Assembly: GCF_014647375.1 (NCBI RefSeq)
Contig: NZ_BMPB01000010.1
Location: forward strand, 1 to 64,000
Reading direction: 5' to 3'
DNA from: Parabacteroides faecis
Lineage (GTDB): Bacteria > Bacteroidota > Bacteroidia > Bacteroidales > Tannerellaceae
DNA: 64,000 nt
The translations under genes and the position numbers were made by a program. Position 1 is the stretch's first letter, and every line of letters starts with the position of its first letter. A model generated the notes under the pieces. That model had not been told where the DNA came from, did not search any database, and worked only from the letters and a program-made list of their open reading frames with translations. Shown piece after piece: positions 28,532-64,000 of this stretch.

Positions 28532-28609
28532 AATGTATTCTTGTTTTATTAACCATTGAAGACTAATGTCTATATATTCAGTTAGTTATGTTGTTGTTTA
28601 AATGTATTG

Positions 28610-28617: not shown

Positions 28618-28621
28618 ATAT

Positions 28622-29081: not shown

Positions 29082-29089
29082 TATATTTG
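29082..29089 (+). promoter_or_regulatory. Outward-facing -7 element (TATATTTG) at the right end of the invertible segment
   Basis: A perfect TAnnTTTG 20 bases inside the right repeat, reading toward rimP in this orientation and toward susC if inverted. No -33 TTTG at standard spacing. Confidence 0.5.
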
Positions 29090-29108
29090 CACCGTGACAA
29101 TAGTATAG

Positions 29109-29124
29109 AGTTCTTTTAGAACTA
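29109..29124 (+). repeat. Right inverted repeat of predicted invertible promoter segment
   Basis: AGTTCTTTTAGAACTA, an exact inverted copy of 28516-28531. Flanking bases on both sides differ between the copies, so the identity is confined to this 16-bp site. Confidence 0.7.
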
Positions 29125-39305: not shown

Positions 39306-39872
39306 CTAATTGATATAAAATAAATACAGAAAGACCGGATAATAATCTTTCAGGCTGGCATGTAGCTTTTTCAAGGCTTTGGAAATATGGTACTCGACGC
39401 CTTTGGTGGTTATTCCTAATGTTTCTGCAATATCTTTATGCGATTTGTTTTCGTAACGGCTCATGATAAATACGACCCTGGTCTGTTCAGGTAAACCGGC
39501 CAGGGTTTTATTGACAATTTCCTGTGCTTCGGCTGTGAATAGTTCGCCTGGATCGCAAGCCTCCAGGGTGGATATGCGGGTATTCAACTCCCATTCGGCA
39601 TGATTCAGTAATTGTTCGTTAACATCTTCTCTTACCTGCAAGTGCTGTAAATAGTTTAGGCATTTATTTTTGATGGTGGTAAGGATATAGGCCGGTATAT
39701 TTGAATTTTCTTCCAGCGAATGGCGATTCTCCCAGTAATACATCAAGGCTTCAATGGTAAAATCTTCAGCAACAGCAATATCCCTTACATACGTATTAGC
39801 AAAGCGGATAAATCTGCCTTGGTAATCAGTAAATAGTTGATTGAACGCTTTTAAGTCTGTTGTATTCTCCAT
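39306..39872 (-). CDS. ECF-type RNA polymerase sigma factor without adjacent fecR
   Basis: 188 residues. Region 2 (NQLFTDYQGRFIRFANTYVRDIAVAEDFTIEALMYYWENR) and region 4 (LAGLPEQTRVVFIMSRYENKSHKDIAETLGITTKGVEYHISKALKKLHASL) are both complete. It is of the Bacteroidetes sigma class that normally pairs with a FecR anti-sigma factor. No fecR gene follows; the upstream neighbour is the GH92 gene of the mannosidase locus. Its partner may be the locus FecR at 47497 or one of the sigma-less FecR proteins at 56307/57397 (inference). Confidence 0.9.
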   Translation of the reverse strand: MENTTDLKAFNQLFTDYQGRFIRFANTYVRDIAVAEDFTIEALMYYWENRHSLEENSNIPAYILTTIKNKCLNYLQHLQVREDVNEQLLNHAEWELNTRISTLEACDPGELFTAEAQEIVNKTLAGLPEQTRVVFIMSRYENKSHKDIAETLGITTKGVEYHISKALKKLHASLKDYYPVFLYLFYIN

Positions 39873-47496: not shown

Positions 47497-48705
47497 TTAA
47501 TGTTTGACTTTAATTTCTATGCTCTCATTTTTTTTCTCAATTTCAATAGGTATCGCTTTTTTCAAAGAACTTAACACGTCTTCCAGGTCTTCTTTCAAAT
47601 CCAGTTTGCCACTGCAACTGACTTCGTTTATGTCTTCTCCGCAGTAGAGTAATACTCCGTAATAGCGGGATAGTTTTTTTAATATCACTTCTAATGATTG
47701 TTGCTTGAATTGATAATATCCATCTTTCCACGCAACATAATCGTCTATATCCACACGACTAACCGTTCCTTGATTTATTTCTTTATCGTAACGGAACATT
47801 TCGTTCGGTGACAGAATATCTTTATGCTTATTTCCTGATTTTATTTCGACTTTGCCACTAACAAGAACGACCTGCATATCCTTTTCATTATCATATGCCG
47901 TTACATTGAATTGAGTTCCTAATACTTTGATGTCCATTTGTCTGGTTTTGACAATGAATGGCTTTTTTTCATCTTTGCTGACTTCCAGATAAATTTCACC
48001 TTCTACAAATATTTCTCTTTCCTTTTCAGAAAAGACTACAGGGTAAATTACTTTGGAATCAGAATTTACCCATATTTTAGTCCCATCAGAAAATGTTACT
48101 GTAGAACGTTTGCCAACCGGTACAATCAGTTGGTTGAATGTTGTTTTCTGCTTTTCTTTTTTTATCTGTTCTATTTTTTGGGAGTTTATATTGATTGATC
48201 CTTCCTGCTTATATTCAAGCTGGCTGTCTTCTCCGTCAATAGTCATTTTTTCATTGTTTGATAAGATGAGTTGTACTTTTGAAGAGGTACTGTCTGATTG
48301 TGGGATAGCTTCTATTATTGATAGATAGTTTGTTTCCTGTTTGTCCGATTGTAGCGTTATGTATTTTCCCAATGACAGTAAAATACAGATGGACGCAGCG
48401 ATTCCTATAACTGATAGAAGCAGATATCTTTGTCTGCTTTTTCGATCAGTCGAATTGTTTTTTTGTTCAATGCACTGCCATAAAGCTTCGCTTTCGCTGT
48501 TTGGTAATGCCGTTTTATTGACATTGGTCCGGATAGCGTTCAAAAAAAGACGAGCAACCTCTATCTCTGCTGCCAATGATTTATTCTCTGCCATCTGCTT
48601 TTGCCAAAACAACAGGCTTTCTGCAGTCGGAGATGATTCGGACTTTAGAAAAAAATCATCATTCAGTAGTTGATCAGCTGTATATTTGGTATAATCTTTA
48701 TCCAT
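47497..48705 (-). CDS. FecR-type anti-sigma factor (mannosidase locus)
   Basis: 402 residues. A cytoplasmic N-terminal sigma-binding domain (about 1-95) and membrane helix (YLLLSVIGIAASICILLSLG, about 100-120) precede an unusually long linker of about 80 residues. The periplasmic FecR domain (LIVPVGKRSTVTFSDGTKIWVNSDSKVIYPVVF, EIYLEVSKDEKKPFIVKT, DIKVLGTQFNVTAY) and C-terminal DUF4974 domain (ISLEVILKKLSRYYGVLLYCG-like) follow. It senses the SusC STN domain and controls the ECF sigma factor encoded 82 bases upstream. Intact, in contrast to the truncated copy at 56307. Confidence 0.93.
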   Translation of the reverse strand: MDKDYTKYTADQLLNDDFFLKSESSPTAESLLFWQKQMAENKSLAAEIEVARLFLNAIRTNVNKTALPNSESEALWQCIEQKNNSTDRKSRQRYLLLSVIGIAASICILLSLGKYITLQSDKQETNYLSIIEAIPQSDSTSSKVQLILSNNEKMTIDGEDSQLEYKQEGSININSQKIEQIKKEKQKTTFNQLIVPVGKRSTVTFSDGTKIWVNSDSKVIYPVVFSEKEREIFVEGEIYLEVSKDEKKPFIVKTRQMDIKVLGTQFNVTAYDNEKDMQVVLVSGKVEIKSGNKHKDILSPNEMFRYDKEINQGTVSRVDIDDYVAWKDGYYQFKQQSLEVILKKLSRYYGVLLYCGEDINEVSCSGKLDLKEDLEDVLSSLKKAIPIEIEKKNESIEIKVKH

Positions 48706-48787: not shown

Positions 48788-49372
48788 TTATTGGACTGAA
48801 ATAGATAAAAGAAGAATAAATATTTCAACAGAACCATACGTATCCCTGATCTTTTTCAGAGAACGCTGGATAAGATTTTGGGCAGATTGATAGTTCATGT
48901 CCATAATAACGCAGATTTCATCAAAACTGAGTTCCTGAATATATCGGTAATAGATGATTTCCTTCTGACGTGGGGTTAATAGAGTTAGAATTTCTTGTAT
49001 CCTTTTTATTTGATTTTGGTAGAGTTCATTGTTTACGTATTGCTCTTCAACGGTTAACTCTAATGAAAAAGAGATAGTTTCACTATTATAACGTTCATAG
49101 TGAGACTCTTGATAGAGTGCATTGATCAGACAATTCTTTAATGCAATAAGCAAGTATAATTTGATATTGTCAGGAATAATAAGCCGTTTTCTATTGTTGT
49201 ACAATTTGGTAAAGACTTCTTGGATACAGTCCTTTATTAGTTCTGTATCCGATGTGAAACGTTTACCATACTGGAAAAGTGTTTGTATATGTACTTTATA
49301 TATCCAGCCGTAAGCATCTTTATCACCAGCGATAAACTGACCCCATTTTATTTTACTTTCATCTTCTTGCAT
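48788..49372 (-). CDS. ECF-type RNA polymerase sigma factor (mannosidase locus)
   Basis: 194 residues. Region 2 is visible at about 10-75 (FIAGDKDAYGWIYKVHIQTLFQYGKRFTSDTELIKDCIQEVFTKLYNNR) and region 4 at about 125-180 (LLTPRQKEIIYYRYIQELSFDEICVIMDMNYQSAQNLIQRSLKKI). It ends in a hydrophobic tail (VEIFILLLSISVQ), common in sigma factors of this class. It directs transcription of the SusC/SusD locus when released by FecR. First gene of the locus. Confidence 0.92.
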   Translation of the reverse strand: MQEDESKIKWGQFIAGDKDAYGWIYKVHIQTLFQYGKRFTSDTELIKDCIQEVFTKLYNNRKRLIIPDNIKLYLLIALKNCLINALYQESHYERYNSETISFSLELTVEEQYVNNELYQNQIKRIQEILTLLTPRQKEIIYYRYIQELSFDEICVIMDMNYQSAQNLIQRSLKKIRDTYGSVEIFILLLSISVQ

Positions 49373-49594: not shown

Positions 49595-50959
49595 TTAGAT
49601 GGTTTCAAAAACTGAAAAGTTCATGATTTGGGGATCGGCCTTTGATTCGTCTACAACTAATTTGATCGCATCGAGTGTTTGAGGTTCGAAACGGTCTATA
49701 TGTTTATGTCCGATGCATGATCCTGAAGCGAGGTCGATCCATTCGTTATTCTTTTTTCCTTTCAGGGAATATTTTAAGACCCGTTCTCCTTTGGCGATGT
49801 CTTCCTGTAGGATGACACGGTTTATGCTGGTCGGTTTGTCAAACGACAGGATATACTCCGAGCCGGTTCCGGATGTTTGCTGAAGAGGAATTCCGTATTG
49901 GCGAACTATTTCTTTACCTAACGTTTCTATCTGGCGGACATCAGCATCAGGTATAAGTCCTTTATCGTTGATAACAAGGCCTAACAACATATTGGTATTC
50001 CTTCCTACACTGGTTTCGTATTTGGTAAGCAGTTCAGGAATATTGAACATCATGCTATCTTGTCCGGCTGTCCAGAACCATCCGCCCTGGAAAGAGCGGT
50101 TCCAACGCAAAGTGAAATCAGATTCTCCCGGGCACCAGAACGGGGCAAAAGGATCGCCGTTCAAACCATTTATCACACGTGTTCCGTCGGCATTGGTGGT
50201 CGAGTCGGCTGTTGACCAGCAGGGATAAGGTGCGACACCTTCTTCATTCCCTACCCATCTGACCAAGTTAGGATGTCCGTACGGACCTTGAAAAGCAATT
50301 GCATTCGGCTGCAGTTTCTGTACAAGCGATAATACATCCGCACCCCCTTGTTCTTTGGACAGTACACCGCCATCGAACCATATTTCGAACAGTTCACCGT
50401 AGTTACTCCATAATTCGGTCAATTGCTGCGTTACAATTTTATTGTATTCTTCCTGACTGACCGGACCTCCTTCCTGAACAACTCCCGGATTATCTACATA
50501 CAGGTAACCGTTTGCGGTTGTACTGGCATAAATGCCCGGTTTGATATTATATTTTTTACAGGAAGCGATGAAATCGGCAACGATATCTCCTTCACCGTTT
50601 TTCCAGGGAGATTGTTTGATGCTGTAGTCATGCGCTTCTGTAGGCCACAGGCTGAATCCACTACAGTGCTTCGCTACGAGGACAGCATATTTGGCTCCCA
50701 GTTTATGAGCTGTTTCCAGCCATTGGTCGGTATTTAATTCAGTAGGATTGAAGACGGAAGCATCCGGATGTGTGCCCCAATTCCTGAAATTATAGTCCGG
50801 TTGGTAGACCGGCATGTCAAAATGGATCAATACACCCATTTCTGCATCTGCCCAGGCTAGCTGGCGGGCATTAGGGGTAACGACAGTTGTTGTTTCGTTT
50901 GAAGAGCAGGATATAAGTACCGACAAGGCTGCCAGTAATCCTGCAAATGTCTTTTTCAT
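49595..50959 (-). CDS. GH29 family alpha-L-fucosidase
   Basis: 454 residues: lipoprotein-like signal (LSVLISCSS), then a (beta/alpha)8 barrel with MGVLIHFDMPVY, GAKYAVLVAKHCSGFSLWPTEAHDYSIK and the nucleophile motif ELFEIWFDGG (Asp near residue 195), followed by a beta-sandwich domain with a C-terminal carbohydrate-binding character. It removes alpha-linked L-fucose from glycans such as mucin O-glycans or N-glycans; the linkage is not determinable here. It follows susD across a terminator-like hairpin and is the only enzyme gene in this locus. Confidence 0.92.
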   Translation of the reverse strand: MKKTFAGLLAALSVLISCSSNETTTVVTPNARQLAWADAEMGVLIHFDMPVYQPDYNFRNWGTHPDASVFNPTELNTDQWLETAHKLGAKYAVLVAKHCSGFSLWPTEAHDYSIKQSPWKNGEGDIVADFIASCKKYNIKPGIYASTTANGYLYVDNPGVVQEGGPVSQEEYNKIVTQQLTELWSNYGELFEIWFDGGVLSKEQGGADVLSLVQKLQPNAIAFQGPYGHPNLVRWVGNEEGVAPYPCWSTADSTTNADGTRVINGLNGDPFAPFWCPGESDFTLRWNRSFQGGWFWTAGQDSMMFNIPELLTKYETSVGRNTNMLLGLVINDKGLIPDADVRQIETLGKEIVRQYGIPLQQTSGTGSEYILSFDKPTSINRVILQEDIAKGERVLKYSLKGKKNNEWIDLASGSCIGHKHIDRFEPQTLDAIKLVVDESKADPQIMNFSVFETI

Positions 50960-51042: not shown

Positions 51043-52671
51043 TTAATTTGCCCAACCCGGATTTTGAGGTAATAAGTTCGGGTTGTAAGTAAACTCGTCA
51101 GTTGGTATCGGATACAGATACAAACGATCGTACCATGTGCGTGTCATACCTGGATAAAGAACGCGGTATTCGCCTGTTGCCGGATCACGCGGACCTAAAT
51201 AGGTCTTCAGGTTTTCCAGTAACTTACCGGCTTTCCATCTGCATAAGTCATTCCAGCGAAGACCTTCACATGCTAATTCTACACGGCGTTCGCGACGTAT
51301 TTCATTCAGCAGCGGAGAGATGGCTACTTCCCATTTTGGCCAGTTCGGATCAGTGAATCCTACATTTACCGTCAGATGCTTCATACCTACACGGTCACGC
51401 AGTTTATTGATCGTTTTGTCCAAAACAGTCTGGTCGCATTCTCCCAGTTCGGCTTTTGCTTCTGCATAGTTCAGGAGAACTTCACCATACCGATAGATCA
51501 GGTCGTCCAGTGTACATTTGATATATTCGTTATCTTCTGCTAACGGAGAGTACATCTTATACAAACGGTAACCGGTAAATGACAGACTGTTGAAGACCGG
51601 AGAATTTTCGTATTCCTCCGAACCGTCAGCCAATATGGCGATAGGGCGTTCAGGAGTGTAAACACATTGTTTCAGACGTGGGTCACGATTTTCGAATTCA
51701 TCAGTGAATTTGGCATCTCCTTTGTAACGATCGCTTAATGCAATAGGTTTGCCATCATCACATAAGAATGATTCGACGAAATCTTTAGTCATACCTGTAC
51801 CTGCCTCACGTACAGTACGGGGACGATTGTTCATACGCTTGTCTGTCACATAAGCTGCAAAAAAGATTGCTTCTTTATTATTCGTATAATCCTGCTGATT
51901 AAATAGAGCATGGTAGTCGTCTTCGATATTCCCTGTTGAATAGATGTCGTATTTACCGCTATTCATAATCTTTTCTGCAGCTTCTATGCTGGAACGAAGA
52001 TACTTATCTGCATTATCAAGATTTCTGTACTTTCTCCATGTACCTTCAAATAGACAAACTCTGGATTTGAGTAATAAGGCTGCGTATTTGCTAAGCCGTG
52101 TGTCGATCATTGTTTCCGGTAGCCAAGCTGCAGCTTTATCTAAGCAAGCACAGATTGAATCGATAACAGCTCCGCGGTCATTTCGTGGGTTATACAGTTC
52201 TTCCGAAGAAGTCGTAAGATCAGTTGTTAACCAAGGTACATCACCGAATCGAAGAACCTTTTCGTAATAAAATTTGGCTTTAAAGAAGTAAATTTCACCG
52301 ACATACTGATTGATCTTTTCTGCATTCCCTTCCACTGTATGATAACGAGACAGGAAATAATTACAACTCCGGATATTTGCCCAATCGCCTTTAGCCCAGC
52401 CTCCTCCGGCTGTAGGGATCGTATAATCACTCCAGATAAAAGCATCTTTTGTCTGATGTGCCTGGTTATCGGAAGCATTGTCGTTGCCATAAGCACCGGT
52501 ATTATCCAGCGTGGTGTAGAACTGATTTGCAAAGTTTTTCAAGTCATTTTCTGTCTTCCAATAGGTCTCGTCGTTGATCTTATCTTCCGGGTACAAGTCC
52601 ATAAAGTCATTATTACATCCGGAAAATCCAAGTAATAAAGACAAGCTTGCTATATAATATACTTTTTTCAT
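51043..52671 (-). CDS. SusD/RagB-like glycan-binding lipoprotein (fucosidase locus)
   Basis: 542 residues from ATG 52671 (MKKVYYIASLSLLLGFSGC, lipobox Cys at 19); a longer frame starting 12 codons upstream lacks the signal at its N-terminus. NDFMDLYPEDKINDETYWKTENDLKNFANQFYTTLD is a typical SusD start. Further family blocks are GEIYFFKAKFYYEKVLRFGDVPWLTTDLTTS, DLIYRYGEVLLNYAEAKAELGE and LNEIRRERRVELACEGLRWNDLCRWKAGK. It partners the SusC encoded immediately upstream. Confidence 0.93.
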   Translation of the reverse strand: MKKVYYIASLSLLLGFSGCNNDFMDLYPEDKINDETYWKTENDLKNFANQFYTTLDNTGAYGNDNASDNQAHQTKDAFIWSDYTIPTAGGGWAKGDWANIRSCNYFLSRYHTVEGNAEKINQYVGEIYFFKAKFYYEKVLRFGDVPWLTTDLTTSSEELYNPRNDRGAVIDSICACLDKAAAWLPETMIDTRLSKYAALLLKSRVCLFEGTWRKYRNLDNADKYLRSSIEAAEKIMNSGKYDIYSTGNIEDDYHALFNQQDYTNNKEAIFFAAYVTDKRMNNRPRTVREAGTGMTKDFVESFLCDDGKPIALSDRYKGDAKFTDEFENRDPRLKQCVYTPERPIAILADGSEEYENSPVFNSLSFTGYRLYKMYSPLAEDNEYIKCTLDDLIYRYGEVLLNYAEAKAELGECDQTVLDKTINKLRDRVGMKHLTVNVGFTDPNWPKWEVAISPLLNEIRRERRVELACEGLRWNDLCRWKAGKLLENLKTYLGPRDPATGEYRVLYPGMTRTWYDRLYLYPIPTDEFTYNPNLLPQNPGWAN

Positions 52672-52708
52672 TCTGTTTTTTGATTTAATTATTCTACAAT
52701 GTTCCATT

Positions 52709-55700
52709 TTAGAATGTCAGGTTTGCACCAAAAGAGAATGACCTGATAAATGGATAAGCATTTACTGTTGCCAATTCAGGATCGAAAGTGTCGGGCATTC
52801 CTGAGAATTCAAACAAGTTGTCTGCATTGAAATAAACTCTCAATTTGGAGATTTTAGCCTTTTCCGTGATGTATTTAGGAATAGTATAACCCAGCGCTAA
52901 CTGTTTACAACGGATATAAGCACCATTCAGCATGAAGCGTGTCTGGTTTTCATTTACGGCAGAACCATTCAAGCGGGCACGTGGAAAGAATGCATCGCGG
53001 TTGTCTTCTCTCCAATAGTCATAATTGATCTTTTGGGGAACAGACCATTCAGATGTATAATGAGACAGATAGAATGTCTTCGACGGCATAATATCACGTT
53101 TCATAGTACCCTGGAAGAATAACGTGAAATCGAAGCCCTTATATTCGGCTGTACCACGGATACCGAAGTTATAACGCGGTGTTTCATTACCAATGATCTT
53201 CAGGTCACCTGAGTTGTTGGCTGTGTTTTCACCTCTTGTAACCTCTCCATCGCCATTCAGGTCAGCAAATTTAATATCACCCGCATATTGCGTGTAACCT
53301 ACTATTTTTGACTGGTTCCATGAAGATGCTTCTTCGTCAGACTGAAATAAACCATCTGTGACAAATCCCCAGATTTCTCCCAGTTTCTTACCTTCATAAT
53401 AATTGTCAGATAAGTTTTTTGTCGGATTATCATATTTGGTGATTTCGGCCTGGTAGTCGGATAAAGATAGTGTTGCACTATAAGCCAGACCGTTTTGTAA
53501 GGACGATTTCCATGTCAAAGCCACTTCCCAGCCACTCGTTCTTAAATCGGCTGCGTTCATTTGCGGTTCACTGGTACCGAGGATGGATGGCAATGTTTTC
53601 GATTTGGTCAGCATATCTTCTGTTGTACGAACATAGTAGTCGAATTCACCGGTCAACTTACTATCAAACATAGAAAAATTAAAACCTAAGTCCCACTGTT
53701 TCACAGTTTCCCATGTCAACTGGTCGCTAACTAACCCCGGAGCATATACGCCCATTTGTTTCTCTCCGTTGAACAAATAACCTACTTCACCTGTAGAATA
53801 GGTAGAAATATAGGGATAATAAGAAGCATAACCGCCCTGGCTTAATACCTGGTTTCCTAAAGCACCGTAAGAACCTCTGATCTTGAAATCATTCACGATA
53901 TGAGAGATCGGTTTCCAGAATTTCTCCTGTGAAAGTCTCCAACCTAATGAGAATGTCGGGAAAAATGCGAAACGATCGTCTTTCGGGAAGCGTGAAGAAC
54001 CGTCGTAACGTCCGTTTACTTGTACCAGATACTTGTCGTCGTATGCATAGAACAAGCGGAAAAATGCACCACGGATAGCCCACTGGTTCATGTAGTCGGT
54101 TGTTGTACGATCGCCGGTTGCCAGATTCAAGAATGGAATATCATTTGCGATTAGGTTGTTTCTGCTCAGACCGACTCCTTTATAGGTTTGGTTTTCCTGG
54201 TTAAAACCGACCATTCCTTCGAAAGCATGTACTTTATTGAATTTTTTCTTATAAGTAGCATACGCATTGAATACATCATATTGTGATTCATTTTTTGTAT
54301 ATGATACCTGATTCGGAGAAGTATGCGGGAAGATCGAGCCCTGATTTCCATCCGCATCATAATCGATATATTCGCGAACATGGTTTTTGAAAGAATAGTT
54401 ATAATAATTATATGTATAATCCACATTGATTTCCAAACCTTCCAGTGGGGTTAATTTGGCAAATGCCGTAGCATACATATTATTATTTCTCATTTCGGCA
54501 TTACCACCCTGAGACAGCCAGGCTGCCTGGTTAGTGAAATAACCGTCACCGCAGTAACCGGCAAAATGTCCGTCCGGATGATAAACCGGCATTAACGGGC
54601 GGCTGTCGCCCGGAATCGTAGCTCCCAAAGAGTTATTTCCATATTTATTCTGAGGACCGGTGTTCATTTTTACCATTGATAAAGTAGCTCTCAATCCCAC
54701 CTGTAACCAGTTGTTTACTTTGTAGTTTACATGTTGCAGTACGTTGAAACGTTTGTAATCTTCATCCGTCCATTTGGAGATACCGTCCTGCTGGAACATA
54801 CCGGCTGAGGTCATGTATTTAGCTGTTTCGCTACCTCCCTGTACACTGATGTTGTACTGTTGCATCGGATAGCTTTTCTTATTCAATGCCTCATACCAGT
54901 CTGTATTTCCGCAATAACGGTATTTGCTGGCTGCGTCGTCCGGATGATGAAACACCGGAAGATTGTTATTCGGATCATTATAATATTTTTTGACATGCTC
55001 CATTGTGATGTCGTCAAAATAATTGCTACCGTTACTTGTCGTATTGGCATCATTCATCCACTGGGTATATTCCATTGAGTTCATATAATTAGCATGAACG
55101 GTTGGAACATTGATAGAATAGTTGGCGCTTAAAGAAACAACCGGCTTTTGTGAGACGAAACCTGTTTTAGTCGTGATTAAGATTACACCGAACGCAGCAC
55201 GTGCTCCGTAAATAGAAGCCGATGCAGCATCTTTCAAAACAGTAACATCTTTTACATCCTGTGGATTAAGCAGGTTCGGGTCCATTTCGATACCGTCTAC
55301 CAGAATAAGAGGTTCACCACCGGATAGGTTGGTTGTACCACGGATGTTAAATTTGGAGCCTGTTCCCGGCGCACCATTGGAAGAGGTAATGTTCAGGTTG
55401 GCAATGGTCCCCTGCAATCCGGCTCCCAGGTTGGTCAGCGGACGGTCTTCGATAACTTCCGAACCGACCGTTGCGACAGAACCTGTCAAGTCGGCTTTTT
55501 TCATTGTACCGTATCCTACAACAACTACTTCTTCCAGTGTTTCTGCATCTTCCTGAAGGATGATTTCCATTCTCTTGCTAGGGTTCGCCTTTACCTCCTG
55601 TTTGACATAACCGATAAAAGTGATAACCAGTGTGGAGCCTGATCGGGCATTGATCGAGAAGAGTCCGTCCACATCAGTCGTAGTACCATTGGTTGTTCCT

Positions 55701-56158
55701 TTCTCAACGATGTTGGCACCGATAACGGCATCTCCATTCGTATCGATAACTTTACCTTTGATAGTACTGTTTTGTTGCGGAGCAGCGGCCATATTCTGTT
55801 TACCGAGTACGATATGGTTCCCTTCTACAGAATATGTAATACCCGAATCAGCTAACAACTCTTTCAGAACTTTTGCAACTGGTTGATTTTTGGCTTTTAA
55901 AGATACCTTTTTGTTTACATTTACCTGATTGTTATAGATGAACAGATAATCTGTCTGATGTTCTATCTCGTTCAGGACCTTTTCCAGTTGAACATTTTTT
56001 TGGTTGATACTGACTCTTGCATTTTGTGAAAAGATATTATCCGCATAACTGTTGAGTATGCAGACCAAAAGCAGGAACGTCGTGATTCTCATAATTCTGA
56101 AAATTTTTAAGGGTCGCGGTGCCCGATATTTGCACCTCGACAAAGTGTTTCTTTTCAT
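52709..56158 (-). CDS. SusC-family TonB-linked transporter with STN domain (fucosidase locus)
   Basis: 1149 residues: an N-terminal extension before the signal helix (MRITTFLLLVCILNSYA), an STN domain (about 45-115, VQLEKVLNEIEHQTDYLFIYNNQVNVNKKVSLKAKNQPVAKVLKELL), a CarboxypepD_reg-like domain (about 130-210), TonB box LEEVVVVGYGTMKKADLTGSV, plug and barrel ending SFSFGANLTF. It is a paralogue of the SusC at 58499 (same start, STN and TonB box). Its upstream fecR is 5'-truncated in the present DNA orientation, so sensing through FecR should be broken unless the segment at 57059 inverts. Confidence 0.94.
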   Translation of the reverse strand: MKRNTLSRCKYRAPRPLKIFRIMRITTFLLLVCILNSYADNIFSQNARVSINQKNVQLEKVLNEIEHQTDYLFIYNNQVNVNKKVSLKAKNQPVAKVLKELLADSGITYSVEGNHIVLGKQNMAAAPQQNSTIKGKVIDTNGDAVIGANIVEKGTTNGTTTDVDGLFSINARSGSTLVITFIGYVKQEVKANPSKRMEIILQEDAETLEEVVVVGYGTMKKADLTGSVATVGSEVIEDRPLTNLGAGLQGTIANLNITSSNGAPGTGSKFNIRGTTNLSGGEPLILVDGIEMDPNLLNPQDVKDVTVLKDAASASIYGARAAFGVILITTKTGFVSQKPVVSLSANYSINVPTVHANYMNSMEYTQWMNDANTTSNGSNYFDDITMEHVKKYYNDPNNNLPVFHHPDDAASKYRYCGNTDWYEALNKKSYPMQQYNISVQGGSETAKYMTSAGMFQQDGISKWTDEDYKRFNVLQHVNYKVNNWLQVGLRATLSMVKMNTGPQNKYGNNSLGATIPGDSRPLMPVYHPDGHFAGYCGDGYFTNQAAWLSQGGNAEMRNNNMYATAFAKLTPLEGLEINVDYTYNYYNYSFKNHVREYIDYDADGNQGSIFPHTSPNQVSYTKNESQYDVFNAYATYKKKFNKVHAFEGMVGFNQENQTYKGVGLSRNNLIANDIPFLNLATGDRTTTDYMNQWAIRGAFFRLFYAYDDKYLVQVNGRYDGSSRFPKDDRFAFFPTFSLGWRLSQEKFWKPISHIVNDFKIRGSYGALGNQVLSQGGYASYYPYISTYSTGEVGYLFNGEKQMGVYAPGLVSDQLTWETVKQWDLGFNFSMFDSKLTGEFDYYVRTTEDMLTKSKTLPSILGTSEPQMNAADLRTSGWEVALTWKSSLQNGLAYSATLSLSDYQAEITKYDNPTKNLSDNYYEGKKLGEIWGFVTDGLFQSDEEASSWNQSKIVGYTQYAGDIKFADLNGDGEVTRGENTANNSGDLKIIGNETPRYNFGIRGTAEYKGFDFTLFFQGTMKRDIMPSKTFYLSHYTSEWSVPQKINYDYWREDNRDAFFPRARLNGSAVNENQTRFMLNGAYIRCKQLALGYTIPKYITEKAKISKLRVYFNADNLFEFSGMPDTFDPELATVNAYPFIRSFSFGANLTF

Positions 56159-56212
56159 ACTTTCTTTGATTTGAAATTAATAAATTAATAATTCGTTTGT
56201 GTCAATTGATGT

Positions 56213-56246
56213 CTGCCGGCTATTGCCCCCCAGCTTTCACCGGCAT
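56213..56246 (-). ncRNA. Conserved G-rich hairpin in the leader before susC (minus locus)
   Basis: ATGCCGG, then a loop containing GCTGGGGGGCAAT, then CCGGCA. The same structure and loop lie at 58410-58443 in front of the other susC, although the surrounding leader sequence differs. It may be a cis-acting RNA element controlling susC (inference). Confidence 0.5.
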
Positions 56247-56306
56247 TACGGTTAACAAGTTTTTATCCCATAAGCATTTAATTTTTGGTGAAACATAGTG
56301 TTTAAA

Positions 56307-57055
56307 TTATTTGATATAAATCATGTGATTGTCGTCATCGCGTTCGTAGGTAAACTTTATATCCTTCTGCAACACTCTCAGGGCATAATCGACGCCGTCT
56401 GTTTGCCTGAACTTGCCGGTATACAGGTATTTCTGTACCTGTATGTTTGTGATATAGATGTTTATCCCATAGTATTTTTCAAAATCTTTCATGATTGAAG
56501 CGAATGTTTCTTTCTTGAAACAGATCAGCCCCTCCCTCCAGCGGTAAGAAGAATAATCGTCGACAGGCTTTACCCGTAATTTCCCATTATGCAGATAGGC
56601 TTTATTATGAGGGGTGAGTGTCAGGCTTTCTGTATCATCCGTCAGGGATGAGATCCTGACACTACCTTCCATCAATGTTGTTTCAAATATTTCGGTACCC
56701 GAATAAGAATCGACATCGAATTGGGTTCCCAGTACTTCTACATTGTATTTATTCGTTTGCACGATGAAAGGTTTGGTTTTGTCTTTCGCTACATCGAAGT
56801 AGGCTTCTCCATCCAGTTTGACCAAGCGTTCTTTTGAATTGAAGGTAATGGGATATTGGATTGTGGTACGTGCATTCAGCCAAACATTCGTTCCGTCCGC
56901 CAAAGTGATATTGATCCGCTGTCCTGCCGGGACCGTGATCGTTTGTAATGCTATAGGGGTTTCTTCCCTTTGCATTTCCTGGTAGATAAAACTCCCGCCA
57001 AGCGTAAGGGCAATGATGGCTGCGATTTTGATCAACTCAGTTCTAAGAGAACTAA
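56307..57055 (-). pseudogene. FecR-type anti-sigma factor lacking its N-terminal domain (OFF half of predicted switch)
   Basis: An open frame coding the membrane helix (ELIKIAAIIALTLGGSFIY), FecR domain (TITVPAGQRINITLADGTNVWLNARTTIQYPITF, GEAYFDVAKDKTKPFIVQTNKYNVEVLGTQFDVDSY) and DUF4974 domain, but no cytoplasmic sigma-binding domain. Upstream the frame continues KLNFFRKKLNDLSSLRTE and then meets a TGA, with no ATG. The first usable initiator would be TTG at 57035. It is homologous to 57397-58341 throughout, and shares with it a perfect 41-bp inverted repeat exactly where truncation begins. I read it as the inactive half of an inversion switch, not a decayed gene. Confidence 0.75.
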
Positions 57056-57058
57056 GGT
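57018..57058 (-). repeat. 41-bp inverted repeat, left copy (in the truncated fecR)
   Basis: Exact reverse complement of 57590-57630, 41 of 41 bases. It contains the dyad AGTTCTCTTAGAACT. It codes LSSLRTELIKIAA in both fecR genes, in the same frame; sequence similarity drops sharply on either side. Confidence 0.85.
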
Positions 57059-57589
57059 CATTCAGTTTCTTCCGAAAGAAATTTAATTTTCATTCGGAAG
57101 AAACTGAAAAAGCTCTCGATAGAATAAAAAAAGACATAAAATGTAAAATATCTTTTTGCTATTACTGTACCGGGAAAATTGGATTTCTACCCCGTGTAAA
57201 TGGAATTAGTATCGCGGGTAATATTTTTTAACGTATCAGAATTTTGTTAAAAGGGCTTTTTTTATGTCACTCTGCTAAAGAAGAATAGAGCGTTTGAAAA
57301 AGGAAATTGATTTTATATTATTTTTTTCATTATTTTACTAGGGATATTCAGTTGTGAACTGCTATTAATATAGAAGGGTAATCCTAAACAACAGAAATGA
57401 ACAAAGAAACATTATATAAATTTTTTGAAGGCAACGCATCTTTTGAAGAGGAAGTGGCTGTAAAACAGTGGATGGAAGAATCCATTGAGAACCGTCAGAG
57501 CTTTTTGAAAGAGCGAAAACTCTTTGATGCAATGTTGCTTTTAGGAAACGAGAAAGTTATAAAAGCCGGGAAGAAAAGATATTCAATAA
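57059..57589. other. Predicted invertible segment carrying the FecR N-terminus
   Basis: 531 bp between the 41-bp inverted repeats. From right to left it holds codons 1-64 of the intact fecR (57397-57589), about 290 bases of upstream sequence presumably containing its promoter, and a 16-bp perfect hairpin next to the left repeat. Inversion keeps the reading frame, since the repeat is entered in the same codon phase in both genes. It would attach this N-terminus to the minus-strand fecR. Confidence 0.75.
57061..57108. repeat. 16-bp perfect hairpin adjoining the left inverted repeat
   Basis: TTCAGTTTCTTCCGAA (57061-57076) and its exact complement (57093-57108), 16-base AT-rich loop, 2 bases from the 41-bp repeat. 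It does not precede a T run in either direction. Confidence 0.6.
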
Positions 57590-58341
57590 ACCTTAGTTCT
57601 CTTAGAACTGAGTTGATCAAAATCGCAGCCGTTATAGCGATCACTTTGGGGGGAAGCTATCTTTACCATCAGTATTCGTTTGAAAAAGAATTGATGGCAA
57701 CGAATACAATCAGTGTTCCGGCAGGACAGCGGATCAATATGACTTTGACTGATGGTACGAATGTTTGGCTAAATGCCAGAACTTCACTTACCTATCCGGT
57801 AAAGTTCAGTAAAAAGAACCGTCAGGTGATATTGGATGGTGAGGCTTATTTCGAAGTGGCGAAAGATAAAACCAAACCCTTCATCGTACAAACGAATAAA
57901 TACAATGTAGAAGTACTGGGAACTAAATTCGATGTGAACGCTTATTCTGAAACGGGTGAATTTGAAACAACATTGATGTCAGGTAGCGTAAGGGTAGCTT
58001 CCACCAGTGATCCGGCGCAGAATTTGACGTTGAAACCGAACAATAAGGTCTATTTACAGGACGGCGAATTGCATGTTTCCGTGGTAGACGATTTTAATCC
58101 TTACAGATGGAAAGAAGGACTGATTTGTTTTAAAAATGAATCGTTTACATCCATTATGAAAGATTTTGAAAAATATTACGGATTAACGATTCAGGTACGG
58201 AATAAAGAAGTACTTAAATACGTTTACACCGGTAAATTTCGTCAGACGGATGGCATAGATTATGCGTTGAGAGTCTTGCAGAAGGATATAAAGTTTAGTT
58301 ATCAACGGGATGATGAAAATCAGATAATCTACATAGAGTGA
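57397..58341 (+). CDS. FecR-type anti-sigma factor, intact (ON half of predicted switch)
   Basis: 314 residues: cytoplasmic sigma-binding region (1-67, MNKETLYKFFEGNASFEEEV, VKQWMEESIENRQSFLKERKLFDAMLLL), membrane helix (about 70-92), periplasmic FecR domain (TISVPAGQRINMTLTDGTNVWLNARTSLTYPVKF, GEAYFEVAKDKTKPFIVQTNKYNVEVLGTKFDVNAY) and DUF4974 domain (FTSIMKDFEKYYGLTIQVRNKEVLKYVYTGKFRQTDGIDYALRVL). No sigma factor gene is adjacent, which is unusual. Codons 1-64 lie inside the predicted invertible segment. It precedes the SusC/SusD pair at 58499, whose STN domain it should sense. Confidence 0.92.
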   Translation: MNKETLYKFFEGNASFEEEVAVKQWMEESIENRQSFLKERKLFDAMLLLGNEKVIKAGKKRYSINLSSLRTELIKIAAVIAITLGGSYLYHQYSFEKELMATNTISVPAGQRINMTLTDGTNVWLNARTSLTYPVKFSKKNRQVILDGEAYFEVAKDKTKPFIVQTNKYNVEVLGTKFDVNAYSETGEFETTLMSGSVRVASTSDPAQNLTLKPNNKVYLQDGELHVSVVDDFNPYRWKEGLICFKNESFTSIMKDFEKYYGLTIQVRNKEVLKYVYTGKFRQTDGIDYALRVLQKDIKFSYQRDDENQIIYIE

Positions 58342-58409
58342 GAAGAATATAATATCATAATTTATTAACCTTAAAAAAGGAGCTTATGGAATATACATGA
58401 AAACAAAAA

Positions 58410-58443
58410 ATGCCGGCAAACGCTGGGGGGCAATTACCGGCAT
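58410..58443 (+). ncRNA. Conserved G-rich hairpin in the leader before susC (plus locus)
   Basis: ATGCCGG (58410-58416), a loop with GCTGGGGGGCAAT, and CCGGCAT (58437-58443). It corresponds to 56213-56246 in the divergent locus, including the six-G run. It sits 56 bases before the susC start. Confidence 0.5.
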
Positions 58444-58498
58444 TCAATCAACACAATTCAATTAAAAACTGTATTAACTTCAAATCATCAACAAAGGT

Positions 58499-61400
58499 AT
58501 GAAAAAAAACTCTTTGTCGGGTAGGTATTATCCTAAATCCCCGCAACTTAAACAAATCTTTAGAATTATGCGAATCACCACATTCCTGTTATTAGTTTGT
58601 GTTTTTTGCTCTTTCGCGGAAAATACACATTCTCAGAATGCCCGGGTAAGTATTAGTAAACGTAATGCGCAACTGGACGAGGTTCTTAGCGAAATAGAGA
58701 ATCAGACAGACTATTTGTTCATCTATAACAATCAGGTAGATGTAAACCGTAGAGTGTCAGTGAAAGCAAAGAACCAACCTGTTTCTGCACTACTCAGTGA
58801 TATACTGAAAAACTCGGGGGTTAATTATGCAATGGAAGGTACTCATATCGTACTTACCAAGACAGACGAAACTGCTGTCGCAGCGGCACAGCAGCAAGCC
58901 CGTAAAATTGACGGCACGATCCTCGACTCCAACGGCGATCCGATAATCGGAGCGAACGTCGTTGTAAAAGGAACTACCAACGGAACGGTTACGGATATAA
59001 ACGGTGAATTTTCGATCGAAGCGGAAGCGGGTTCTACTTTGAATATTTCTTATATCGGTTATTTGACAAAAGAAATGCCGGTTGGAAATGAAACGAATAT
59101 CCGTGTGGTATTGGTGGAAGATACCAAAGCGCTGGACGAAGTTGTCGTGATCGGATATGGTACTCAGAAGAAAGCTGACCTTACTGGTTCTGTTGCGAAT
59201 ATCAGCACGGAGAAACTGAGTACACAGAGTAATGTGAATATCGGCCAGGCACTTCAGGGCAAGATCGCCGGTGTGGATATCGTATCCCAGGGAGGTGCTC
59301 CGGGACAAAGTAGCCGTATCATGGTTCGTGGTATCGGAACGTTGAACAACGCCAATCCGTTATATATTGTAGATGGTATGTATATGAGCAGTATGGATCA
59401 TCTGAATCCGAATGATATCGAGAGTATCGACGTATTGAAAGATGCTTCTTCTGCAGCTATTTATGGTTCGAGAGCCGCTAACGGTGTGATCATTGTCACA
59501 ACCAAATCGGGTACGAACACGGAAGGTAAGCCGATTATCGATGCTTCCGCCAACATCGGTGTACAGACTCCTTCTAAATATCTTGATATGCTCGGTGCTA
59601 ACGACTGGGCACGTCTGACAACTGTTTCCCGTGAAGCGATCGGAGCCAAGCCGCTGGAAATGGGAATAGACATGAAAGAAAATAATGATTGGCAGGATAT
59701 TATGATGGGACCGGCACTGATGCAGAACTATAACCTGACAGTGCGTGGCGGAACGAAATACTTTACTTATTATACCGGTCTGGGGTATGTCAATCAGGAC
59801 GGTACGATCAAGGGTACCAACTATGAACGCTACAATGCCCAGTTCAAATCTGAATATAAGAGAGGTTGGTTTACATTCGGTAATAATGTCGTGTTCAGTT
59901 CACAGCAGAACAATCCGTTGTATGGATTTGCCCGTGGCGGTTATCTGGGAATTATCCTCCAGTCGATTCCTTCTTTACAGCAATATGATCCGACCAACGA
60001 GAAGGGCGGCTATGGGAAAGTCTATGGCGATGCAACAGATATCCCGAACCCGCTGGGTATTCTGGACGAGAACTTGACCCGCAGAACCTGGGATTCGTAC
60101 AACGCTTATATCAATCTGTATGCGGAGGTAAAATTGCCGTTGGGATTGAAATATCGCCTGAATGCAACGCCTGACTTCTCCTTTGAACGGAATACTTCTT
60201 ACGAGAATATTTATGATTTCGGTTTGCGTAATAATGCGGTTTCCAATATGACCGAATATCGTTATCGTAAAAATAATTTCCTGATCGAGAACTTGTTGAC
60301 ATTCGATCAGACATTTGGGAAACATAAGATCAGCGCCTTGTTGGGATATTCTTACCAGAACTACCGTACACGTTATATCATGGCTTCCGGTAAAGGACTG
60401 CCCGAAGGAATAACGGAGGTCGGAGCGGCTACACAGGATCGTATGAATGATGCCTGGTCGAAAGAAAGTGCGTTGACTTCCATTATCTCCCGTGTTTTCT
60501 ATTCGTACGATAATCGTTATCTGATCACTGCGACTTATCGTCGTGACGGTTCTTCTAAGTTTGCGAAAGAAAATCGCTACGGTCATTTCCCTTCCGTTTC
60601 TGTCGGTTGGAACGTGGCAGAAGAACATTTCATGGAAAATTCAAGAAGCTGGCTGGATCAGTTGAAGTTAAGAGGCGGTTACGGTATCCTGGGTAATCAG
60701 GAAATCGATGACTATATGTATACCAGCGTTGTAACTTCCAATATCAACTATCCTGACGGAAACGGTGGGGTGATCAGCGGTGCTTTCCCGAAAGATTTCG
60801 CTAGTCCGGCTATTAAATGGGAAGAAACAGAGATGACTAATATTGGTGTGGATCTGGCTTTCTTAAATTCGCGTTTGATGGTTACGGCCGATTGGTACCG
60901 CAAAAATACAAAAGATATTTTGCTGAAAGTTCCTATTCCTGTCTCTACGGGTGGTGCAAACGACCCTGTGCTTAATGCGGGGAAAATCAAGAATACCGGT
61001 GTAGAATGGACCGTAGGCTGGAATGATGCGCCTTCAAAAGACTTTGCCTATGGCGTAACGTTTACAGGAAATGCAATGAAGAATGAAGTGGTTGCAATGG
61101 GTACTGCCAACGGGGTGATCGAGGGTGGAACAAACCGTACGAATGTTCCGACAACCAGAACATTGGCCGGATATCCGATCGGTGGTTTCTGGCTGATTCC
61201 GACAGAAGGTATTTTTCAGAACCAGGCGGAAATCGATGCGTATGTGAAAGACGGTAACCTGATCCAGCCGAATGCAAAACCAGGGGATATCCGTTTCAAA
61301 GATTCTAATAACGACGGAAAGATCACGGATGACGATCGTGAATATTGCGGCAGTCCGTTCCCGAAAGTAACATTGGGATTGAACTTCAATGCAAGCTATA

Positions 61401-61858
61401 AGGGTTTTGACCTGTTGTTGGGAATGCAGGGTGTTTTCGGTAATAAAATTTATAATGGTACGCGCCTGGAACTGGAAGGAGTGAACAAAGGTACAAACTT
61501 CCTGGCTACTACACTGGATTATTGGACACCGGAGAATACAGGAGCTTCGCATCCGCGTCTGGTATGGGATGACCCGAATCAGAATACCCGTCCGCAGAGT
61601 GACCGCTTCCTGGAGAACGGTTCATTCTTCCGCTTGCGTAATGTGCAGTTGGGATATACATTCCCTAACCGCTTGTTCCAGGATAAAATTCAGAAATTAC
61701 GTGTGTATGTCAATGCTGAAAATCTGTTTACGATTACCGGATATAGTGGTTATACACCCGATATCAACAATAGCGACAATGCAACATCACGCGGTTTCGA
61801 TAATTTCGTTTATCCGACAAACAGAGTCTTTATGCTGGGACTTAATCTTACATTCTAA
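58499..61858 (+). CDS. SusC-family TonB-linked transporter with STN domain (plus locus)
   Basis: 1119 residues. Start MKKNSLSG, signal helix MRITTFLLLVCVFCSFA, STN domain (about 45-115, AQLDEVLSEIENQTDYLFIYNNQVDVNRRVSVKAKNQP) and CarboxypepD_reg-like domain (about 135-215, IDGTILDSNGDPIIGANVVVKGTTNGTV). TonB box LDEVVVIGYGTQKKADLTGSV, plug (GVDIVSQGGAPGQSSRIMVRGIGTLNNANPLYIVDGM), and a barrel ending RVFMLGLNLTF. It is a paralogue of the SusC at 52709. It is paired with the SusD 14 bases downstream, and its upstream FecR is intact in this DNA orientation. Confidence 0.95.
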   Translation: MKKNSLSGRYYPKSPQLKQIFRIMRITTFLLLVCVFCSFAENTHSQNARVSISKRNAQLDEVLSEIENQTDYLFIYNNQVDVNRRVSVKAKNQPVSALLSDILKNSGVNYAMEGTHIVLTKTDETAVAAAQQQARKIDGTILDSNGDPIIGANVVVKGTTNGTVTDINGEFSIEAEAGSTLNISYIGYLTKEMPVGNETNIRVVLVEDTKALDEVVVIGYGTQKKADLTGSVANISTEKLSTQSNVNIGQALQGKIAGVDIVSQGGAPGQSSRIMVRGIGTLNNANPLYIVDGMYMSSMDHLNPNDIESIDVLKDASSAAIYGSRAANGVIIVTTKSGTNTEGKPIIDASANIGVQTPSKYLDMLGANDWARLTTVSREAIGAKPLEMGIDMKENNDWQDIMMGPALMQNYNLTVRGGTKYFTYYTGLGYVNQDGTIKGTNYERYNAQFKSEYKRGWFTFGNNVVFSSQQNNPLYGFARGGYLGIILQSIPSLQQYDPTNEKGGYGKVYGDATDIPNPLGILDENLTRRTWDSYNAYINLYAEVKLPLGLKYRLNATPDFSFERNTSYENIYDFGLRNNAVSNMTEYRYRKNNFLIENLLTFDQTFGKHKISALLGYSYQNYRTRYIMASGKGLPEGITEVGAATQDRMNDAWSKESALTSIISRVFYSYDNRYLITATYRRDGSSKFAKENRYGHFPSVSVGWNVAEEHFMENSRSWLDQLKLRGGYGILGNQEIDDYMYTSVVTSNINYPDGNGGVISGAFPKDFASPAIKWEETEMTNIGVDLAFLNSRLMVTADWYRKNTKDILLKVPIPVSTGGANDPVLNAGKIKNTGVEWTVGWNDAPSKDFAYGVTFTGNAMKNEVVAMGTANGVIEGGTNRTNVPTTRTLAGYPIGGFWLIPTEGIFQNQAEIDAYVKDGNLIQPNAKPGDIRFKDSNNDGKITDDDREYCGSPFPKVTLGLNFNASYKGFDLLLGMQGVFGNKIYNGTRLELEGVNKGTNFLATTLDYWTPENTGASHPRLVWDDPNQNTRPQSDRFLENGSFFRLRNVQLGYTFPNRLFQDKIQKLRVYVNAENLFTITGYSGYTPDINNSDNATSRGFDNFVYPTNRVFMLGLNLTF

Positions 61859-61872: not shown

Positions 61873-63381
61873 ATGAAAACAATAAAATTAATCATATTCG
61901 TATTTATTGCCGTTGCATTAAACAGTTGTGAAGGCAAGCTGGATCTGACTAATCCGAACAAGCCGACCGGTGCTACATTCTGGAAGACGGAAGCCGACTT
62001 TAAGCAGGCGATGGCTTCCTGTTATACTCCGTTGAAAAACTGGAACGGCGGTTACTATGGAACCCGCGGACTGATGACTCGTATTTCCCGTGCCGACGAT
62101 ATCGAATTTCGTAATGATATCGCTGATATCTATTCGATGCACCGTTTTACGAACGACCCGAACAATTCGGTGGCACATAATATCTTCTATCAGTTCTATA
62201 ATGCTATCTATCGTGCAAATTCTATTTTGCAGGAAATCGAAGGAAAAGATTTTCCGGAAGATTTTATAAAGAAGACCCGCGGTGAAGCTTTATTTATCAG
62301 AGGCATGTATTATTTCCAACTGGCAAAAGAGTTTGGAGATGTGCCTTTGAGATTGGAAGCATCCCAGGATCCGGTGACATTCCAGTTGGCCAAGTCGAGC
62401 CAGGCAGATGTTTATGCACAGGCGGCAAAAGATTTTATTGAGTCGGCCAATTTACTTCCTGTATCGAATGATAAGGGAAAACCGACAAAAGGTACGTCTT
62501 ATGCTTATTTGGGTAAATTGTATGTATATACAGAGAAATGGCAGGATGCTAAAAATACCTTGGAACCATTGACAAAAGCACCTTATACTTATAAGTTAGT
62601 CGATGATTTTACCTGGAATTTTGATGAGGAACATGAAAATAATGCGGAAAGTATTTTTGAGATCCTGTATGAACCGGTCGGCGGATCTGACCAGTGGGAT
62701 AATGGCGAAACGGCCAACTCGGCACAGTCTACCACTATCGCAGTTGAATATGCGGCCGGTGCTGTAGGCGGATGGTTTGAAGCTAAACCGACACAGAAAA
62801 TGATGGATATTTTCCTGCAGGAAAAAGCGGCTAATGGCGAGTACGATTATCGTGCTCTGACATCTGTCGCCTGGAATTATCCGGGATGTATGTATTATAT
62901 GAAACCTATTCAGGAGGTACTATCCGGTGACGATCTGAATTCCTATTGGATTCTTAAATATCAGAACTCCAAAACCCGTGAACAGGAAGTGGAAACAATT
63001 CCTTCTTATATCAATGAACGGGCTATGCGTTTTGCGGATGTGATCCTTCTGCTGGCAGAATGTGAACTGAACCTGAACAATACGGCACAAGCTATCAGTT
63101 ATATCGATCAGATCCGTACCCGTGGCGGTAACCTGCTTCCTTATTCCGGTAAAACCGATGCGGCATCAGTTAAGAATGAGTTGGTTCATCAACGTGCTAT
63201 CGAGTTCTTTAAGGAAGGGGAGCGTTTCTACGATCTTCGTCGTTGGGGATTACTGGAACAGGAATTGAAATCGCAGGATCCGATCCGTTTCGCCAGCTTC
63301 CAGAAGCGTCATTATTATTTACCGATCCCGGCTAAAGAAATACAGACGAATTTACTATGTACTCAAAATAGCGACTGGTAA
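61873..63381 (+). CDS. SusD/RagB-like glycan-binding lipoprotein (plus locus)
   Basis: 502 residues: MKTIKLIIFVFIAVALNSC signal (lipobox Cys at 19), then LDLTNPNKPTGATFWKTEADFKQAMASCYTPLKNW, a SusD N-terminus, GEALFIRGMYYFQLAKEFGDVPLRLEASQDP, and PTKGTSYAYLGKLYVYTEKWQDAKNTLEPL. The C-terminal block is INERAMRFADVILLLAECELNLNNTAQAI and HQRAIEFFKEGERFYDLRRWG. It works with the upstream SusC at the cell surface. A hairpin follows before the next gene. Confidence 0.94.
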   Translation: MKTIKLIIFVFIAVALNSCEGKLDLTNPNKPTGATFWKTEADFKQAMASCYTPLKNWNGGYYGTRGLMTRISRADDIEFRNDIADIYSMHRFTNDPNNSVAHNIFYQFYNAIYRANSILQEIEGKDFPEDFIKKTRGEALFIRGMYYFQLAKEFGDVPLRLEASQDPVTFQLAKSSQADVYAQAAKDFIESANLLPVSNDKGKPTKGTSYAYLGKLYVYTEKWQDAKNTLEPLTKAPYTYKLVDDFTWNFDEEHENNAESIFEILYEPVGGSDQWDNGETANSAQSTTIAVEYAAGAVGGWFEAKPTQKMMDIFLQEKAANGEYDYRALTSVAWNYPGCMYYMKPIQEVLSGDDLNSYWILKYQNSKTREQEVETIPSYINERAMRFADVILLLAECELNLNNTAQAISYIDQIRTRGGNLLPYSGKTDAASVKNELVHQRAIEFFKEGERFYDLRRWGLLEQELKSQDPIRFASFQKRHYYLPIPAKEIQTNLLCTQNSDW

Positions 63382-63432: not shown

Positions 63433-63465
63433 TTGTCTCTGATCATTAATGTAAAAATAGATTGT

Positions 63466-64000
63466 ATGAAATATAACAGTGTAATCGCGCTAATAACCGC
63501 GGGCTTTTGCCTGGCTGTACAAGGTTATGCGCAATCAGTGAATGGCGTAACACATTCCGGACAGTCTACCGGTCAACCGCCTTTCCCCGTGACATCTTAT
63601 ATGGAATTACCGAATCCGGCCGTGACAAACCTCGACTTGTGGGAAAAAGTGAAAGGGACGAAAGTCAGTTGGGGGTCGACGGATATCCGTTACAAGAAAG
63701 AAGAACCGGCTCCGGTGGGATCGATAAAAAAGGAAATAGCATTAACTGCCTGGAAAGGGGAACGTGTCGCTTCACAATTTGTTGTCTGGGGGGATCAGCC
63801 GCTCACAGATCTTTCTTTTTCGGTAAGTGACCTGGTTTATAAAAATGGAAAATACACAATCGGCAATAGTCGGCTCTTATGCGGTTTTGTCCGTTATGTC
63901 ATGACAGATGAATTGAATAAGGATGGAAAAGGAGGATGTGGCGACCGTCCTGATGCGGCTGCTTTCGATTCGTCGCTTGTAGCAGATCCGATAGACCATC
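63466..64000 (+). CDS. Secreted DUF4091-like protein (partial, C-terminus off window)
   Basis: Open from ATG 63466 to the window end (178 codons). Signal peptide MKYNSVIALITAGFCLAVQGYA, then MELPNPAVTNLDLWEKVKGTKVSWGSTDIRYKKEE, ALTAWKGERVASQFVVWGDQPL, CGFVRYVMTDELNKDGKGGCGDRPD and SLVADPIDH. These resemble the N-terminal beta domain of Bacteroidales proteins carrying DUF4091, which are often encoded in glycan loci and treated as putative glycoside hydrolases. That assignment is from memory of the family; the catalytic region is outside the window. It is the first gene after the SusC/SusD pair. Confidence 0.6.
   Translation, partial: MKYNSVIALITAGFCLAVQGYAQSVNGVTHSGQSTGQPPFPVTSYMELPNPAVTNLDLWEKVKGTKVSWGSTDIRYKKEEPAPVGSIKKEIALTAWKGERVASQFVVWGDQPLTDLSFSVSDLVYKNGKYTIGNSRLLCGFVRYVMTDELNKDGKGGCGDRPDAAAFDSSLVADPIDH

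Follow-up and report, generated by a model that had tools for sequence, protein, structure and literature searches.

A predicted DNA inversion switch that would join one promoter-like block and one FecR head to either of two FecR bodies in Parabacteroides faecis

DNA inversion in gut Bacteroidales varies capsules, outer-membrane proteins, and restriction enzymes (PMC4747536, PMC11892184). In Bacteroides fragilis, the tyrosine recombinase Tsr0667 drives SusC/SusD shufflons and nine other regions (PMC4747536). In the Ureaplasma UU172/MBA element, a short inverted segment carries an upstream spacer together with a 5' coding part; Southern blots placed this segment before either of two neighbouring genes, and one of its repeats is intragenic (PMC3047005). 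In FecR systems (FecI-FecR-FecA), the N-terminal cytoplasmic part of FecR can act on the sigma factor (PMC9249621). Here we analyse positions 1 to 64,000 of contig NZ_BMPB01000010.1 of Parabacteroides faecis (GCF_014647375.1), which we call the window, where two divergent fecR genes, each next to a susC-susD operon of a polysaccharide utilization locus (PUL), share an inverted repeat. We consider it likely that this is a site-specific inversion switch that moves a promoter and the sigma-binding N-terminal part of FecR (the head) between the two PUL operons, picking the receptor that is served by one sigma factor. The support at the level of sequence comes from the repeat, the reading phase, a genome-wide site family, conservation, selection on a headless FecR body, a stranded sigma gene, and a common leader.

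The UU172 element is the mechanically nearest described case that we encountered, because an upstream region and a 5' coding part shift between two genes. There, inversion acts on a surface antigen, and UU171, which receives the segment in the other state, is an adjacent conserved hypothetical open reading frame (ORF), whereas here the target would be a regulator and both receivers are in-frame FecR bodies. The comparison is one of anatomy, as seen here in silico, and we claim no relation in sequence. The targets in B. fragilis lie beside susC/susD genes, as here, and the site motif of our locus fits the consensus that reportedly belongs to Tsr0667; that system exchanges promoters or SusC/SusD genes, while here an anti-sigma head would be exchanged. 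With FecI-FecR-FecA the locus shares a receptor with a signalling domain, the FecR fold, an extracytoplasmic function (ECF) sigma factor, and an N-terminal cytoplasmic part, but its sigma gene is non-adjacent and inversion would let a single head work with two bodies and two receptors. Inversions whose ends lie inside coding sequence and alter the protein made were reportedly the subject of a 2024 report on intragenic inversions. A related case is hsdS shuffling (PMC11892184), whose variants differ in the DNA that they recognise; at our locus the sigma-binding head would stay constant and be passed from one sensor body to the other.

In a mainly open-access literature search, with most subscription papers outside it, no inversion of a fecR or anti-sigma N-terminus was described among the matches listed, in agreement with an earlier reading of the window (the sequence-only reading), which knew of no description of such a shuffle. 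Among the matches listed, 'FecR' and 'DNA inversion' occurred together only in PMC5382811, which treats Acinetobacter regulators, and 'anti-sigma' and 'inverton' in PMC12548429 and PMC12324116. The accessible parts of PMC13114119, PMC11892184, PMC10939037, PMC3090145, and PMC5903667 do not describe such a switch, and PMC10939037 mentions invertible intragenic regions in genes including regulatory ones, with reference to its Table S1.

The predicted invertible segment spans 57018..57630 (613 bp with both arms). Its two 41-bp arms, 57018-57058 and 57590-57630, match exactly as reverse complements and are part of a longer inexact repeat. The right arm covers codons 65-78 of the plus-strand fecR, and the left arm lies within the frame of a headless minus-strand fecR. 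The plus FecR (57397-58341) is complete, with 314 amino acids and the Pfam domains FecR and FecR_C. The minus frame is open from 57089 to a stop at 56307 and encodes the transmembrane and periplasmic parts without a head. The two frames run into the repeat with equal codon phase (SSLRTELIKIAA), and inverting 57018-57630 in silico gave a minus open frame of 317 codons that holds a full 314-aa FecR and a headless plus frame of 260 codons, the mirror of the present arrangement. The perfect repeat, the headless minus frame, and the equal phase with its reciprocal outcome had all been read from the window before, and our analysis bears them out. The functional unit is the predicted 15-bp core recombination site, AGTTC-N5-GAACT, which lies at 57039..57053 (AGTTCTAAGAGAACT) and at 57595..57609 (AGTTCTCTTAGAACT), where codons 67-71 read it in frame as SSLRT. 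The head that would be exchanged thus comprises codons 1-66; the sequence-only reading rightly placed this part on the plus gene alone and put its extent at codons 1-64. One head with two bodies in this reciprocal layout was found in 4 of the 39 genomes of a genus set with one genome per species, namely our own (G000), G009, G013, and G038 (the pair genomes). The core is unchanged in all eight arms of these four genomes, though the codons for S, S, L, R, and T are highly degenerate.

Two further elements were seen inside the segment. Immediately inside the left arm, at 57061-57108, there is a 24-bp near-perfect palindrome (92%), with matches of about 40 bp in several other genus genomes, that the terminator scan did not report. 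Rfam, searched over 55800-59000, gave three microRNA-family matches over the palindrome (57041-57124; best E 0.001), far under the gathering scores, which we took as chance. An element of about 90 bp at 57149-57241 has about 12 further copies in the genome, on both strands, with 73-80% identity.

The movable head (57397..57594, plus strand) is the sole copy at the locus and has no Pfam match of its own. In the predicted FecR structure (mean pLDDT 90), it forms three cytoplasmic helices (H3-11, H16-28, and H30-50), followed by a low-confidence, disordered linker (51-64) and a long helix from residue 66. The exchange point at codons 67-71 is predicted to fall at the junction of the linker and the membrane helix, where a swap should be harmless. 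Body 1 (57595..58341, plus), which is joined to the head here, consists of the transmembrane helix and periplasmic domains with Pfam FecR and FecR_C, and its fold resembles the anti-sigma structures 4m0n and 4m0h and PupR 6ovk. Body 2 (56307..57053, minus) is an open frame that is headless here. The protein thus has the FecR and FecR_C domains, the membrane helix, and, by predicted structure, the N-terminal cytoplasmic head of the FecR type. No sigma gene lies beside either fecR, where a cognate ECF sigma gene would be sought, and the protein is still a FecR by its domains. Elsewhere in the same genome, at C20:72472-73390, a fecR is broken into two neighbouring open frames.

The core belongs to a site family. 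AGTTC-N5-GAACT occurs four times in the window against 0.09 expected, and there are 66 sites in the genome against one for a reversed control pattern. We compared the spacers of 50 of the 66 sites. Seventeen pairs of these sites are less than 1 kb apart; in 16 of them the spacers are inverted-identical, against 5 of the 1208 remaining pairs, and the one left over is a direct pair within a triple. The spacers of 57039-57053 and 57595-57609 match, and spacers vary between most pairs. Differing spacers between pairs are expected for a recombinase that requires matching overlaps. Tsr0667 of B. fragilis is said to recognise AGTYYYN4GDACT, and 47 of the 50 sites fit this consensus. For the neighbourhoods we chose 20 regions, which hold 34 of the 50 sites (the 12 lone sites and the four in the window were left out). 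In 18 of the 20 regions, susC or sigma-fecR genes adjoin the site. None of the 20 has a site within an ATG-started ORF of at least 130 aa, and thus the in-frame placement at our locus is special among the surveyed regions. In-frame core sites were found in 6 of 124 family genomes by a strict pattern, which misses G012, a genome that does carry the site. Among 80 related FecR loci from other Bacteroidales, none has the core site within fecR, and none has an exact inverted repeat of at least 13 bp that pairs the initial 320 nt of fecR with its upstream DNA, which was covered to 1.5 kb or, in shorter loci, to the locus end. The genome has 23 tyrosine recombinase matches, 22 of which exceed the Pfam cut-off. 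Two other site groups of this genome were seen upstream of susC genes. At 28517-29123 of the window there is a second pair with a matching spacer, 592 bp apart, upstream of a susC at 24997-28392 (minus), which is probably another invertible promoter region. At C10:84064-84259 (L244 2065-2260) a susC is preceded by three AGTTC sites, of which two are direct and the third is inverted, possibly a three-site switch.

Besides the head, the segment holds a conserved promoter-like block, AYTRGGGAT-N9-TGARCTGYTA (57337..57364, plus), upstream of the head. It is found as a single copy in each of 11 of the 124 family genomes and not in the controls. Nine of the 11 belong to the genus, and in an alignment of these nine it precedes the head; in the four pair genomes the segment encloses it. 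We take it as a putative promoter. A motif search also found a leader hairpin with the conserved loop GCTGGGGGGCA upstream of each susC, at 58409..58444 (plus) for susC 1 and 56212..56247 (minus) for susC 2. There are 13 matches to this leader in 9 of the 39 genus genomes, all before the susC of this locus, and none in the controls: five single-fecR genomes have one copy apiece, the four pair genomes have two apiece (one per susC), and the other 30 have none. In the leader alignment 93% of cells are paired and one pair shows a double change, a score reached by 48 of 500 shuffles, so that the covariation is weak and does not support the status of a proven RNA. All four pair genomes have one head, one promoter-like block, and two leader hairpins. 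Since the block is found only in the segment, inversion should also switch the transcription of the whole operon.

The proposed common partner of both FecRs is an ECF sigma gene at 39306..39872 (minus; TIGR02985), which is syntenic in all seven genomes with the site. It is stranded 17 kb from the switch, at the end of another PUL, without a fecR of its own. Orthologues of this sigma (at least 70%) occur in 10 of the 39 genus genomes, which are the seven with the site and G026, G032, and G022, and one is present in each of the nine genomes with this fecR. G026 and G032 have the orthologue directly next to fecR in divergent orientation; in the seven site genomes 11-24 kb separate the two genes. 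Nine of the ten orthologues are near the same SufD gene; the stretch read for G032 has no SufD. At 72 of the 80 related FecR loci a relative of this sigma lies in the flank, and the other eight have none in the covered stretch. All 72 flanking sigmas are nearer in sequence to the 39306-39872 sigma than to the other sigma of the window, and over these loci the FecR and sigma scores correlate with a rho of 0.84, which partly reflects shared descent. The other sigma, at 48788-49372 in the adjacent PUL, was rejected as partner, as its own fecR (47497-48705) lies alongside and none of the 72 flanking sigmas is closer to it. The 39306-39872 sigma is the likely partner of both FecRs and is predicted to bind their common head. 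As a separate matter, the first 53 codons of an ECF sigma gene are duplicated (96% identical) in L039 at 1761-1919; this copy has the direction of the intact gene and lies about 1 kb before it.

The switch would then work as follows. Inversion, presumably by a tyrosine recombinase acting in trans, would separate the sole promoter-like block and the sole head (codons 1-66) from one FecR body and fuse them, in frame, with the second. A full FecR and its SusC/SusD would then come from whichever operon faces the segment, and the opposite operon, without promoter, start codon, and head, would be silent. Since both FecRs would carry an identical head, both should serve the same ECF sigma (39306-39872), and the STN domain presumably lets each body sense the SusC of its own operon. 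PF07660 is present in both SusC proteins, and a receptor with a signalling domain adjoins each FecR. Flipping would select which of two TonB-dependent glycan receptors works with the one sigma. We are modestly inclined to see the locus as a heritable input selector, in which one stranded ECF sigma is coupled to either glycan receptor by DNA inversion. The sequence-only reading had proposed a reciprocal inversion cassette between divergent fecR-susC-susD loci, and this is strengthened by the site family, the matching spacers, the conservation in four species, and the selection on the headless body. To describe the switch as acting solely on the anti-sigma N-terminus was too narrow, as the segment also holds the sole promoter-like block, and the stranded sigma had been overlooked. 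Its further proposal, that the switch decides which locus is properly regulated, may hold under the mechanism given here.

An ordinary Bacteroidales promoter inversion, in which the break inside fecR is incidental and the common head has no regulatory meaning, is the strongest competing explanation, and we think it unlikely. The other AGTTC pairs surveyed (12 pairs and the triple) are intergenic and mostly before susC or sigma-fecR operons, the outer site in G012 and G015 is non-coding, and the segment does contain the only promoter-like block, all of which speak for a promoter inversion. A promoter switch does not need sites in a coding frame, though, and none of the 20 chosen regions has one; moreover, the phase and the five codons are preserved in 8 of 8 bodies, and both operons would share one stranded sigma.

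Several observations weigh against an active head-exchanging switch. The head is on the plus body in all four pair genomes, which has a chance of 1 in 8 under random orientation, so the switch is possibly rarely used or locked. The comparison among relatives that the sequence-only reading had called for thus found the layout again, in a single orientation. G001 has a single core site, in fecR. In G013 and G038, differences between the arms appear within the ten codons beyond the core. The length of the exact arms (41 bp in the window, 33 in G009, 23 in G013, and 23 in G038) is not exceptional, as exact inverted matches elsewhere between the bodies reach 35, 32, 23, and 23 bp in the same genomes. 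Arm length alone therefore proves nothing and was dropped as evidence; the motif and its position carry the weight. The same matches qualify the earlier statement that the two paralogues are otherwise clearly diverged, which is roughly true, as the bodies have 70% DNA identity overall in the window (70-73% across the four pair genomes). From 121 to 180 nt from the core the bodies are again 24-29/30 identical per 30-nt window, and gene-conversion patches or strong protein conservation also act between them. A scan for consensus sigma-70 promoters found 11 against 7.7 (sd 2.9) in shuffles, and a terminator scan found one terminator-like site against 1.4 expected. When 10 of the 23 recombinases were scanned with NCBIfam, only one (XerD-like) exceeded a curated cut-off of any kind and none exceeded an invertase cut-off. 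Finally, G022 carries the sigma (88%) but no leader, no promoter block, and no fecR that reaches E 1e-85. Its assembly consists of 490 contigs, though, and the E 1e-85 cut-off is also missed by G026, where a contig end splits fecR.

The single orientation would also fit a fixed relic, in which old sites are inactive, the head stays with the plus body, and the minus body is decaying or has become a headless periplasmic protein, for which a TTG codon at 57035 could serve as start. We regard this as improbable, as the headless body shows strong purifying selection. By the NG86 method, dN/dS is 0.032-0.063 for the headless body and 0.054-0.071 for the headed body, and these ratios are rough, as synonymous sites are almost saturated, with a dS of 0.7-2.6 between species. 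From the core to the codon before the stop there are 744 nt in 8 of 8 bodies, with no frameshift in four species, the cores are invariant, and the genome is rich in site pairs with matched spacers. In the tree, the four plus bodies split from the four minus bodies with a support of 99/97 each against the other; with all 14 rows, the support is 87/95 for the plus fork and 99/97 for the minus fork. Since the plus and minus bodies are on separate branches, the body pair is probably older than the four species. Why four species retain a headless gene is difficult to understand if it is neither completed at times nor functional without a head.

An assembly artefact in the 41-bp identity, which the sequence-only reading had named as a possible refutation, and a chance repeat are both very unlikely, as three other genus genomes share the layout with their own exact arms. 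A trace of an inverted duplication that is kept alike by gene conversion or protein conservation, and is not a recombinase target, is very improbable indeed: the bodies are paralogues with other long exact stretches between them, and the two arms of G000, like those of G009, agree fully in the first ten codons counted from the core even though these codons are not the same in the two species, but the core is the same in eight arms while adjacent codons vary, it is a motif that recurs genome-wide in spacer-matched pairs, and the identity of the two bodies is 30/30, 30/30, 28/30, and 28/30 in the first 30 nt from the core (four genomes) and drops to 16-20/30 in the second 30 nt.

Related forms of the locus were found in the genus. 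In G032 and G026, fecR is beside a divergent sigma gene and the core site is absent from the stretches read. G012 and G015 have a single fecR and two core sites 312 bp apart, whose spacers are the same within each genome and different between the two genomes. In the pair genomes, a second PUL with the headless body lies beyond the outer site. From these forms the evolutionary order may have been no site, one site, two sites with one body, and two sites with two bodies, and such relatives suggest a route to a switch of this kind. In L144 (1448-1789) and L145 (1374-1715), this fecR of two relatives has its own two-site segment, with 312 bp between the sites and a single body, which is probably an on/off form of the switch.

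If the head-exchanging switch is real, inversion would rewire a signalling pathway, a phase variation of wiring that goes beyond the mere expression of surface proteins, and a population would be heritably split in the glycan that it senses. The locus would also be a natural test of FecR heads and bodies as interchangeable modules. In addition, it exemplifies how comparative genomics can assign candidate partners to a lone sigma factor.

The genes of the two operons are as follows. On the plus side, susC 1 (58499..61858; TIGR04056, PF07660) is followed by susD 1 (61873..63381; PF07980, PF14322) and a GH123-like gene (63433..63999; PF22680) that runs off the window. On the minus side, susC 2 (52709..56158; TIGR04056, PF07660) is followed by susD 2 (51043..52707; PF07980, PF14322) and an alpha-L-fucosidase-family gene (49595..50959; PF01120). 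The start regions of the two susC genes, 58487-58532 and 56125-56170, are alike (76%), and by eye a short hairpin (ACAAAG...CTTTGT) lies over each start codon.

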